DNA of 26,353 nt from IMG/VR virus record IMGVR_UViG_3300020430_000081, positions 1-26,353 of that record; one strand, written 5' to 3'. The notes beneath the pieces were generated by a model, which was not told the DNA's origin, ran no database searches, and was given only the letters and a program-made list of their open reading frames with translations. Position numbers and translations under genes: made by a program. Source of the stretch: a virus. This document shows positions 1 to 26,353 of this stretch, in pieces (within the stretch, counting starts at the first letter, position 1; each line of letters begins with the position of its first letter).

Positions 1-552
1 TAACTTGTCGCCGAGACCGAGAGCTCCAAAGAAACCAGCGATACCAGCACCTATAAGAGTTATTCCTGCAGCTGCTCTTGCGGCTGTACCTACGCCAAAT
101 AAAGCAGCTAGAGCTCCACCAGCTGCCATAAGTCCACCAAGTCTTATCATTCCATCGTTATCTAGTGCACTTAATGCAGTACCAAAATTTGTTAAAAATT
201 TAGCTAGGTTCTCGCCACCACCACTGTTCATCATTTCCATGGCTTTGTCTGACGCTGCTAAAGCTGTAAAGAACGCGGCTATTCCACCACCTACTAGTGC
301 TATTCCAGCTCCGGCAGCGGTTCCTCTACCTATAGTACCAAACAATGCTCCGCCGAGCAACACAGTGCCAAGAGCTTTAAATCCTTTTTCGCTGAAAGCT
401 TCTAAGCCTTGTCCTAAGTTTGTAAGTAATTTTTTAAGATTATCGCCACTGCCAAATTTTTGCATGATGGCTTCGGCTCCAGCAAGTCCAACGAAGAAAG
501 CTCCGATTCCAGCTCCTGCCGCACCTATACCTACTCCAGCTCCTGCTAGTAT
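1..552 (-). repeat. Three tandem Gly/Ala-rich protein repeats in the tape measure
   Basis: Residues 82 to 265 of the tape-measure product contain at least two full units and the start of a third. Each has a hydrophobic Gly/Ala stretch ending in G-I-x-x-F-F, a short acidic linker, and (units 1 and 2) an amphipathic NLxKxLTN segment. FF pairs fall at 100, 175 and 255. The units are diverged at DNA level, so this is a protein repeat. More units may lie outside the window. Confidence 0.6.
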
Positions 553-795
553 ACCTCCTAGTCCGCCAAATCCTCCTAGGTTAAGAAGACTCTTATTTGT
601 AGTACCACCTGCTTTTGCCGTTTTAGCTTTCGTAGTTGTTTTACCGCTTTCTCTACGATCCTCTAATCCAACTCGAGCTTGATCGGCAAAGTATTTACCG
701 AACATATTTTCAAGTCCAGCGATACCAGCGTTAATGTCAACGTTGGTTTGATTATTGGTTTTAAGTTGTTCTACTACATCTGCTAATTTAGCCAT
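1..795 (-). CDS. Tail tape-measure protein, N-terminal part (runs off left edge)
   Basis: The frame is open from an ATG at 795 down to base 1, giving 265 residues with no stop, so the gene continues beyond the window. The N-terminus (1-70) is polar and probably helical. From about residue 82 the protein becomes Gly/Ala-rich and hydrophobic, with three similar units of about 75-80 residues; each has a G-I-G/A-x-F-F block (96-101, 171-176, 251-256), and the first two also have NLxKxLTNxG (119-127, 196-204). Hydrophobic repeats, position after the tube-fold and gp26-type genes, and the small overlapping ORF just upstream fit a tape measure, which sets tail length inside the tube and is ejected on infection. 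The ATG lies inside the end of the preceding ORF (shared ATGGCTAA), so translation is probably coupled. T4 gp29 is the functional counterpart; I see no clear sequence match to it, so no symbol is given. Confidence 0.72.
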   Translation of the reverse strand, partial: MAKLADVVEQLKTNNQTNVDINAGIAGLENMFGKYFADQARVGLEDRRESGKTTTKAKTAKAGGTTNKSLLNLGGFGGLGGILAGAGVGIGAAGAGIGAFFVGLAGAEAIMQKFGSGDNLKKLLTNLGQGLEAFSEKGFKALGTVLLGGALFGTIGRGTAAGAGIALVGGGIAAFFTALAASDKAMEMMNSGGGENLAKFLTNFGTALSALDNDGMIRLGGLMAAGGALAALFGVGTAARAAAGITLIGAGIAGFFGALGLGDKL

Positions 796-979
796 TTGCT
801 TGTCTCTGTCTAAGTTCTTCTTCTTTTATCAAGTCAACTAACATATTAACGTATACTTCTTTTTCCCACGGTATCAAATTGTCTATCTCAGCGAGTGAGT
901 ATTTATGGTGTTGCATCATATCAAAATTAGTCTTGTAATACACCTGCAACGACGTGTGAGATAGACTTATTATAAAAAA
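788..979 (-). CDS. Small ORF in the -1 frame, probable frameshift extension of the gp26-type protein
   Basis: Read in the -1 frame from the slippery run at 979-973, this frame is open for 63 codons to a TAA at 790-788, overlapping the tape-measure start. The product contains NFDMMQHHKYSLAEIDNLIP followed by a Trp and a highly charged helix ending in a Glu/Arg/Gln-rich tail. It looks like a real folded segment rather than random reading. No convincing independent start exists: possible ones are GTG at 943 or ATG at 919, neither with a clear Shine-Dalgarno. The simplest reading is that it is made as a C-terminal extension of the upstream protein by -1 frameshifting, giving a 297-residue fusion. 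Its place directly before the tape measure is where long-tailed phages encode the frameshifted tail-assembly chaperone. Independent translation from GTG 943 remains possible. Confidence 0.68.
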   Translation of the reverse strand, partial: FFIISLSHTSLQVYYKTNFDMMQHHKYSLAEIDNLIPWEKEVYVNMLVDLIKEEELRQRQANG

Positions 980-1680
980 CTTTGCATTCCTTCCAGTAAC
1001 ATTTCATTTTTCGTATTACAATGAGAACAAGTATATTCTACATTGTGAGAAAGCTTTGGAATATTTTCTACGTATCCTCTAATCATACCAAATTGAGCTT
1101 GAGTCATTGATTCTAAAAACTCTTGAAATTCTTCATAACGAGTTTCATTCATTGGTATTCTTTCTTCTTCAGTCATTACGCATACTACAGATTCTTTTAT
1201 TAAAGCAAAAGCTTGTTCTGTAGTATTAGTACCAAGAGCTTTTTCATTTCTCATCATAGAAGAGAAAGTTGGATGCTGCATTTCTACTGTGATGTCATCA
1301 GTAATTTTTATCTGATTATCTTTAGTTTGTCCACTCATCTTAATTTCAGTTAAATCAATATTAACTTCTGTCTCACCTTGACACTTTTCGCATTTTAAGT
1401 TAACTTTAGTTGTTTCTCCAACTGACTTTGCTCTTAATTGCAAGAACAAATATTCTACATCGTATCCGGTTAATTTATCAGTGTCGATATCATCTATGAT
1501 GCAACCTTTTACGGCATCAAGCATAGACATAGCTATTTGTTGGGGGTCTTGAGATTCAAGAGCTATCAATAAAACTTTTTCTTCTTTTACAAGAAAAGGT
1601 CTCACAGTCACTTCTTTATTCAAAGATGGTACTAAGATTTTATACTTTGGTACCGTCGTATTTAATTTAGGCAATGCCAT
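970..1680 (-). CDS. 26: Baseplate hub assembly protein, gp26 type
   Basis: A 236-residue protein of the T4 gp26/gp51-type baseplate assembly group. The ATG at 1680 is chosen over an in-frame ATG at 1713 because AAGGAG lies nine bases before it and the longer form would overlap the upstream gene. N-terminal part (10-90) is predicted mixed alpha/beta. Two CxxC pairs, C97/C100 and C218/C221, could bind one metal ion between them. T4 gp26 is about 208 residues. In T4 such proteins are needed for hub assembly but are not clearly kept in the virion. Its position upstream of the tape measure, with a slippery site on its last codons and an open -1 frame beyond, suggests it works as a tail-assembly chaperone that coats the tape measure. 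The gp26 versus gp51 label is uncertain. Confidence 0.68.
   Translation of the reverse strand: MALPKLNTTVPKYKILVPSLNKEVTVRPFLVKEEKVLLIALESQDPQQIAMSMLDAVKGCIIDDIDTDKLTGYDVEYLFLQLRAKSVGETTKVNLKCEKCQGETEVNIDLTEIKMSGQTKDNQIKITDDITVEMQHPTFSSMMRNEKALGTNTTEQAFALIKESVVCVMTEEERIPMNETRYEEFQEFLESMTQAQFGMIRGYVENIPKLSHNVEYTCSHCNTKNEMLLEGMQSFL
973..979 (-). promoter_or_regulatory. Candidate -1 ribosomal frameshift site (T TTT TTA)
   Basis: On the minus strand the gp26-type gene ends AGT TTT TTA TAA. The seven bases T TTT TTA form a canonical X XXY YYZ slippery heptamer in the correct phase, and the stop codon follows at once, which would favour pausing. After a one-base slip the ribosome reads ATA ATA AGT and continues for 61 codons. 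I see only a weak downstream stem (ACAC/GTGT, about 4 bp), so no strong stimulatory structure is evident by eye. Confidence 0.65.
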
Positions 1681-24920: not shown

Positions 24921-25409
24921 ATGATACACCCAAAACTTAAATTCTCCAGAGCTCACTTTCTAAATGATGCGAGAACAACAATTGAAGCTTTTTGGACTGA
25001 TGGAAAGCGAGAAAGAGTAGAATACATAGAAGCAAAAGAAGGTGACGTACATTACGAACACTTGTTAAAATTTATAGACATTGATGCCTTACACGAAGCC
25101 ACTTATAAGCATATCAAAGAACAAAACGAAGCGTTTGAAGATTCTGTGATTAAAATTGCTAAAGAAAGAGGAATGGTATATGACTTTAACGAGCAACACA
25201 GTGATGTTCATAAAGCTTTTGCTCAATTTTTATTTGGTGATTTTGATCCCGAAAGAGACAAAGAAAAATTATTTTTATATAAACTAGCTTTGTTTGAAAC
25301 TTCTAGCGTTAAAAGTGAAAGAAAACATTCTAAGAAGAAAGAGCTAAGACAAGCAAAAACTATTAGAGAAGCTACTCAAATCGCTTTGTCTATGGGTAGT
25401 ACGTCATAA
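24921..25409 (+). CDS. Conserved hypothetical protein, last gene of the tail operon
   Basis: A 162-residue, mostly helical and highly charged protein. The first half reads as a compact domain (KFSRAHFLNDARTTIEAFWT at 7-26; EYIEAKEGDVHYEHLLKFID at 34-53). Residues 68-120 are helical with KIAKERGMVYDFNEQ. The C-terminus is Lys/Arg-rich (about 130-150). No motif identifies a function. GAGGAG lies six bases upstream of the ATG, the strongest ribosome site of the distal genes, which argues for substantial expression. A fibre-assembly chaperone or a non-virion helper is possible but is a guess. It overlaps the convergent radical-SAM gene by six bases, both stops included. Confidence 0.8.
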   Translation: MIHPKLKFSRAHFLNDARTTIEAFWTDGKRERVEYIEAKEGDVHYEHLLKFIDIDALHEATYKHIKEQNEAFEDSVIKIAKERGMVYDFNEQHSDVHKAFAQFLFGDFDPERDKEKLFLYKLALFETSSVKSERKHSKKKELRQAKTIREATQIALSMGSTS

Positions 25410-26353
25410 AGATTCTGTAAGCCTAAACTGGCCTTTCTCGTATTTATTAGAGCAACTGTAACTGCAATTTCTTATTGGATTTTCAGATTGTATAACGTAA
25501 GGTAACTCTTTCCACCATAGATTGCTTAATATATCTTTTAAGTTTTTCTCATAAATGTTGTTATTGTAGTTATAGTACTTTCGAGCAAAGGGATGATGTT
25601 CTATCCATTTTTTATTTTCCATTATAGAAGCATTTCCAAAAAAGCAACAAGGCCAGACGTTTCCATCAAAATTTATATTTAGTGTGTTGGTTAAAGACCA
25701 GCCACAAGTTGGCATACTAACCAAACTTGGTATTCCAGTTTTGTTTATTTGAGCTCCTTGTTTTTTAAAGTTATCTGCCCAATCATTAGTTACTTCTTGT
25801 AAGCTAAGTTCAATGTTATTTTCATCATAAAAAGTGTACGTATTATTTTTTCTAAACCTGTCACTTATAACTGATGAATGTTTTTCTGATCCATATTTTT
25901 TACACAAGCTAGTAATTTCTTCTAAATGTTCTTGATTGTGTTTAAATAATACAGTCTGCGTTTCAACTATAACTCTGTCTTTAAATTCTGAGCATATTTT
26001 TACGTGATCTAAAACTTTTTGCAAATCAGTATTTCTTCTGTAAAGACCATGCATTTCTTGATTTATTCCGTCCACTGCAAACACGAGAATTAATCTTCTA
26101 TCATTATATCGTGATTTATATCTTACGGCTAAAGAGCAAAGTTTCCACCAATACAGTTCATCTCTCATACTTCCATTAGTGTTGATAGTAACTATTATTC
26201 TTGGAGCCGAGCTTAAAAAGTGTTCTACAATTTCAAGTGCATGAGGATGCATCATGTGATCTCCCCATGTAGGACAAAGTTGTATGTGATGATAATTAAA
26301 TAACTCTTCTTTAGTAAAAGCGTTTTGTATTTTTTGGAAAGGTACATGCATTA
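25404..26353 (-). CDS. Radical-SAM/SPASM-type enzyme, 5'-truncated by window edge
   Basis: About 315 residues from a Met codon at 26351, but the true start probably lies outside the window, because the CxxxCxxC iron-sulfur motif that opens radical-SAM enzymes is absent. What remains fits the rest of the barrel: CPTWGDHMMHPHALEIVEHF with G-D, TINTNGS, and FAVDGI followed by YRRNTDLQKVLDH. The C-terminal part has a SPASM-like domain: C216 in TCGWSL, FDGNVWPCCFFG with C235 and C236, and NCSYSC with C296 and C300. SPASM enzymes hold extra iron-sulfur clusters and often modify peptides or carry out sugar-related chemistry. Phage versions are known but their substrates are mostly unknown. It is convergent to the tail operon and not obviously part of it. 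Confidence 0.82.
   Translation of the reverse strand, partial: MHVPFQKIQNAFTKEELFNYHHIQLCPTWGDHMMHPHALEIVEHFLSSAPRIIVTINTNGSMRDELYWWKLCSLAVRYKSRYNDRRLILVFAVDGINQEMHGLYRRNTDLQKVLDHVKICSEFKDRVIVETQTVLFKHNQEHLEEITSLCKKYGSEKHSSVISDRFRKNNTYTFYDENNIELSLQEVTNDWADNFKKQGAQINKTGIPSLVSMPTCGWSLTNTLNINFDGNVWPCCFFGNASIMENKKWIEHHPFARKYYNYNNNIYEKNLKDILSNLWWKELPYVIQSENPIRNCSYSCSNKYEKGQFRLTESL

Follow-up and report, generated by a model that had tools for sequence, protein, structure and literature searches.

The window analysed here, meaning the whole stretch of 26,353 nucleotides, is a 26 kb virus record carrying T4-like tail genes. Their order on the minus strand is head closure, DNA end protector, tail tube, a gp26-type gene and a further ORF. 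The gp26-type gene (970 to 1680, minus strand) has a zero-frame product of 236 aa, proposed here as a short tail-assembly chaperone (TAC-N). The zero frame ends ...ATG CAA AGT TTT TTA TAA TAA, and the sequence of the minus strand from 1000 to 965 is GTTACTGGAAGGAATGCAAAGTTTTTTATAATAAGTC. The AGT TTT TTA TAA gene end described in the earlier note was confirmed on this strand: the last two sense codons of gp26 carry the slippery heptamer T TTT TTA (979-973) in phase, and tandem zero-frame stops, TAA TAA, lie 3' to it at 972-970 and 969-967. In the -1 frame, 61 codons follow the slip site, up to a TAA stop at 790-788. This extension (788 to 973, minus strand) would form the C-terminal part of a fused gp26-gp51 product of exactly 297 aa, the proposed TAC-NC, and its end overlaps the start, ATG at 795-793, of the next gene (1 to 795, minus strand), a probable tape measure gene that is truncated by the window edge. 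Elsewhere in the window, beside tail genes, a 315-aa ORF at 25404-26351 on the minus strand carries the cysteine motifs CGWS, CCFF and CSYSC and looks like a radical-SAM/SPASM-type enzyme.

The gp26-type protein matched the Pfam family PF12322 (T4_baseplate) over residues 11-236, with E=8e-56 and 189.6 bits against a curated cut-off of 24.5, and the baseplate hub family phrog_150 with E=1.1e-56. Its AF2 model was confident (pLDDT 92.7) and matched models of viral gp26-type proteins. The extension matched phrog_634, the 'baseplate hub assembly catalyst' (gp51), with E=1.3e-26. It also weakly matched the C-terminal end of phrog_150 (positions 231-276, E=9e-4), an indication that the extension is part of some proteins in that family. 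Between relatives, compared in non-overlapping pairs, substitutions in the -1 frame were distributed 493:198:60 over codon positions 3:1:2. From this third-position bias, the extension appears to be both translated and constrained in the -1 frame.

Conservation of the slippery heptamer

TTTTTTA is not a rare string in this AT-rich window (38 copies compared with 26 expected), and the heptamer alone therefore proves nothing. It is raised above chance by its position, phase and conservation. The earlier note had proposed aligning the junction in related phages, and both the heptamer and the -1 frame were found to be kept. In all 80 of the nearest IMG/VR relatives an in-phase TTTTTTN lies 0 to 3 codons ahead of the stop, and the -1 frame encodes gp51. 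When distant relatives were included, T TTT TTN was present no more than 9 codons from the stop in 195 of 198 loci. These wider loci span phages of Rhizobium, Sinorhizobium, Stenotrophomonas, Aeromonas, Cronobacter, Caulobacter, Pseudomonas and Pelagibacter, together with KVP40-like Vibrio phages. Reduction of the set at 80% protein identity gave 100 non-redundant representatives, 97 of which keep the in-phase run. In the wider relatives the extension is always between 54 and 70 aa long.

Codon choice at the gene end is strongly biased. All 97 representatives with F-F or F-L near the C-terminus use the spelling T|TTT|TTN there, compared with 11 of 198 for these dipeptides at other places in the genes (P=5e-66, with shared ancestry uncorrected among representatives that are at most about 80% identical). 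The codon preceding the run ends in T in all 97, where about 58 would be predicted from usage. Elsewhere in the gp26 genes, in-phase XXXYYYZ occurs at 0.56% per codon. In three loci (L159, L171 and L174) the zero frame continues 8 codons beyond the heptamer, so that the short product has a short divergent tail.

Some lineages do not have the heptamer. Ackermannviridae and the Vibrio phages K448 and K364 lack X XXY YYZ, yet have a gp51-like frame in -1. Since these phages are without it and T4 uses two genes, frameshifting is not a requirement across the wider family. In Serratia phage 3M the end of gp26 reads G GTT TTC, the site of T7 gene 10, and the junction is without an ATG; gp51 in this phage may still need a weaker, T7-like frameshift. 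The remaining phages without the heptamer have N NTT TTY, apart from phage YC, which has G GCT TTC. A weaker slip site may be used in these phages. Runs of the N NTT TTY type, or similar, are seen at the gp26 gene ends of Ackermannviridae among loci L243, L244, L245 and L097. With the Vibrio K448 protein as query, IMG/VR yielded no relatives.

Predicted stimulatory elements and possible alternative origins of gp51

An SD-like sequence, GGAAGGA, is located at 988 to 994 on the minus strand, ending 8 nt before the heptamer, and its predicted duplex in the window is about -5.7 kcal/mol. In the relatives the SD-like core mostly ends 8-10 nt 5' to the heptamer; the published spacing for stimulation of -1 frameshifting by such a site is 9-14 nt (PMC5009743). 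Across the family, the potential for pairing with the 3' end of 16S rRNA peaks just 5' to the heptamer, with a z of about -11 relative to synonymous-codon shuffles. Excess folding relative to synonymous shuffles is strongest, again family-wide, in windows starting 0-6 nt 3' to the heptamer (z about -16). It should be noted that smaller folding peaks occur elsewhere and that the make-up of the shuffle pool accounts for part of the z values; where the peak lies therefore matters more than how high it is. Stems of 10-13 bp beginning 2-5 nt 3' to the heptamer are found in P-SSM2-like phages; the stems of other lineages differ but are similarly placed. In P-SSM2 itself (L002) a nearly perfect stem-loop of 13 bp lies 5 nt 3' to T TTT TTC, and related phages show paired changes in this stem. 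In the window taken by itself the SD-like site is good and the 3' stem is weak: the possible stem-loop AGTCT/AGACT (929 to 967, minus strand), 5 nt after the heptamer, has a predicted energy of -7.3 kcal/mol and a z of -0.4, which is not significant in this phage alone. Taken family-wide, the predicted SD-like site and 3' folding support programmed ribosomal frameshifting.

An SD-like sequence 5' to a stop codon can also promote translational coupling (PMC5009743), and gp51 is listed as its own CDS in public records. It might accordingly be made as a separate small protein, as annotated in databases, by reinitiation or coupling after the gp26 stop; TAATG or TGATG is indeed found in the -1 frame at the junction of some relatives, with none in the window. 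The possible starts in the window are TTG, GTG, ATG and ATG at codons 9, 11, 19 and 20 of the -1 frame, with no SD pairing better than -0.7 kcal/mol, and the conserved extension starts well 5' to the first ATG. Among the relatives, 50 of the 97 lack ATG, GTG and TTG in the first 12 codons of the -1 frame, and 36 lack ATG in the first 20. The earlier description of the extension as having no clear start is borne out by these results. The same note held that relatives with an RBS and ATG for the small ORF would speak against frameshifting; where an ATG is present, a reasonable RBS (SD pairing of -4.4 or better) was found in only 9%, compared with 58% for the gp26 start. The SD-like site lies about 25 nt 5' to the earliest typical ATG, too distant for gp51 initiation, and coupling leaves the invariant in-phase T TTT TTN unexplained. 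An independent gp51 start was rejected on this start-codon and RBS survey of 97 relatives, and we consider separate synthesis of gp51 very unlikely.

Every case has a homopolymer run, as would also be expected if RNA polymerase, instead of the ribosome, slipped on the poly-T tract to give heterogeneous mRNAs. Polymerase slippage usually requires longer pure runs. Here the run is only 6 T, or 7 T in 28 of the 97 representatives; it is ended by C in 66 of them and is never preceded by T. Moreover, polymerase slippage predicts no fixed codon phase and no SD-like or 3' folding signals, and we regard it as a most improbable source of the long form. From the sequence evidence, a conserved -1 programmed ribosomal frameshift at the end of gp26 is very likely.

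Relation to T4 gp26 and gp51

In T4, gp26 (208 aa, on the opposite strand) and gp51 (249 aa) are encoded by separate genes, whereas in this phage both forms would come from one frameshift locus. A profile of the fused product aligned with T4-type gp51 over 235 columns, through the junction, with a probability of 99.3 and E=2e-20, and gp26 alone also matched the N-terminal part of gp51. By this alignment, the predicted frameshift product has its counterpart in T4 gp51, which is encoded as a single ORF. In one IMG/VR isolate record (L211:2501-3246) a T4-type gp51 is split mid-domain across two frames, for which a sequencing or assembly error is more likely than recoding.

The collinearity of the fused product with T4 gp51 bears on a remark made in 2010 that the gp51 of cyanophages and marine vibriophages is without the first ~200 residues (PMC3037559). 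Since the two are collinear, cyanophage gp51 would not be truncated; its N-terminal part is gp26. The puzzle thus appears to be resolved, the ~200 'missing' residues being those of gp26, joined by frameshifting. The records of P-SSM2 and of the Methylophilales phage Melnitz list this frame as a small gp51 gene of its own, and in other cyanophages it is left unannotated. No joined gp26-gp51 CDS was found in the public records examined (P-SSM2, Melnitz and other cyanophages). In these marine phage records gp51 is therefore recorded as a separate gene or missed altogether.

Probable chaperone function and proposed mechanism

Phage lambda slips at G GGA AAG, not at U UUU UUN, and the heptamer of E. 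coli dnaX is A AAA AAG. Both systems are among the closest known to the present one. As proposed for gp26, lambda makes its short and long chaperones, gpG and gpGT, by slipping into the -1 frame shortly before the first ORF ends (PMC5009743), but the two pairs have no known sequence similarity. At dnaX, too, an SD-like stimulator precedes the heptamer and a stem-loop follows it (PMC5009743), but the gene and product are different, and here slippage would yield the longer product. At the TAC locus of Pakpunavirus and Andersonviridae (phage Adele), GTTTTT is conserved at the end of TAC-N and the -1 extension is routinely mis-annotated, as it is here (PMC12846349); this is another phage group, and no SD-like stimulator is reported in the relevant section of that paper.

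The earlier note had treated such chaperone pairs as known in other phage groups. T4-like chaperone genes too were described in 2022: passages of PMC10885494 and PMC12846349 cite Vladimirov, Gautam and Davidson (Virology 566:9-15) for them. A passage of PMC12846349, citing the 2022 study, names poly-T runs as known -1 signals in T4-like TAC-N genes, and one in PMC10885494 states that some T4-like phages have separate short and fused-long chaperone genes. Judged from these citing passages and from the comparison with T4, the T4-like chaperone genes of 2022 are very probably the gp26 and gp51 families. Because T4-like chaperones with poly-T slip sites have, according to the citing passages, already been reported, the present locus adds to a known type and the general principle is not new. 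What is added here is the evidence for stimulators, the breadth of the survey and the gap in annotation.

The earlier note also called the next gene a tape measure gene. The 61-codon -1 ORF, with a stop overlapping the next ATG, stands as it was described; the tape measure label is probable, from position, and ORF 795-1, truncated by the window edge, matched neither Pfam nor PHROG families. In Caulobacter phage Cr30 the ORF at the corresponding place matched the tape measure family phrog_794 with E=3.5e-9, and for the equivalent in pf16 a tape measure identity is weakly supported. The next long ORF adjoins or overlaps the extension in 70 of the 97 relatives.

For gp26, the PDB fold match of best probability was the HK97 tail assembly chaperone gp13 (2ob9_A), a sub-threshold match (prob 0.30, E=0.76, TM 0.39 by target length). 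The PDB searched by sequence profile gave no match, and a fold search with T4-type gp51 gave no match to a known chaperone. The names of T4 gp26 and gp51 refer to the baseplate hub, the PF12322 family is named for the baseplate, and the resemblance in fold to a known chaperone is weak. It is conceivable, then, that the long form does arise by -1 frameshifting but that the proteins act in baseplate hub assembly and not as tape measure chaperones. However, two nested products would be made by -1 frameshift, the long next ORF is directly adjacent in most relatives, and T4-like chaperone genes are named in the 2022 study, as the citing papers relate. We therefore think a role restricted to the hub unlikely. 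The two roles may overlap, because T4 gp29, the tape measure, is also counted among the hub subunits. A chaperone function is likely from gene anatomy, in which the short and extended forms share an N-terminal domain, from synteny and from the literature, together with the sub-threshold match to HK97 gp13. The chaperone in forms of 236 and about 297 aa that the earlier note proposed is thus supported, with the conserved slip site and the collinearity with T4 gp51 now added; its functional side draws on the evidence just listed.

In our reading, to which we assign a probability of roughly 0.88, the locus is one tail-assembly-chaperone gene that gives two products by a -1 slip at U UUU UUA, like lambda gpG/gpGT. 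The evidence is drawn from sequence: the heptamer with its phase and conservation, the family-wide stimulators, the coding extension and the collinearity with T4 gp51. From it we infer actual slippage, the slip rate and the chaperone function. Most ribosomes would read gp26 to the TAA and stop there, giving the 236-aa protein. The minority that slip would do so at U UUU UUA, moving back by one base while tRNA-Phe is on UUU and tRNA-Leu on UUA; this would be assisted by pairing of GGAAGGA with the 3' end of 16S rRNA and, in many relatives, by a stem-loop just 3' to the heptamer. These ribosomes would translate 61 further codons to give the 297-aa protein with gp51 as its C-terminal domain. If the pair works like lambda gpG/gpGT, the tape measure protein would be coated by many copies of the short form, and a small number of long ones would recruit tail-tube subunits. 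On the same analogy, we propose that the slip rate fixes their ratio.

More tentatively, the chaperone ratio in the T4 superfamily may be set by a dnaX-like cassette (internal SD, U UUU UUN and 3' stem) under selection at synonymous sites. T4 and its near relatives would have switched to two full-length genes, and Ackermannviridae may use the weaker, T7-like N NUU UUY. To our knowledge, the stimulators and the switching between frameshifting and two genes have never been described together. The family would offer a clear comparative case in which the same protein pair is fixed by frameshifting or by two separate genes in related phages.
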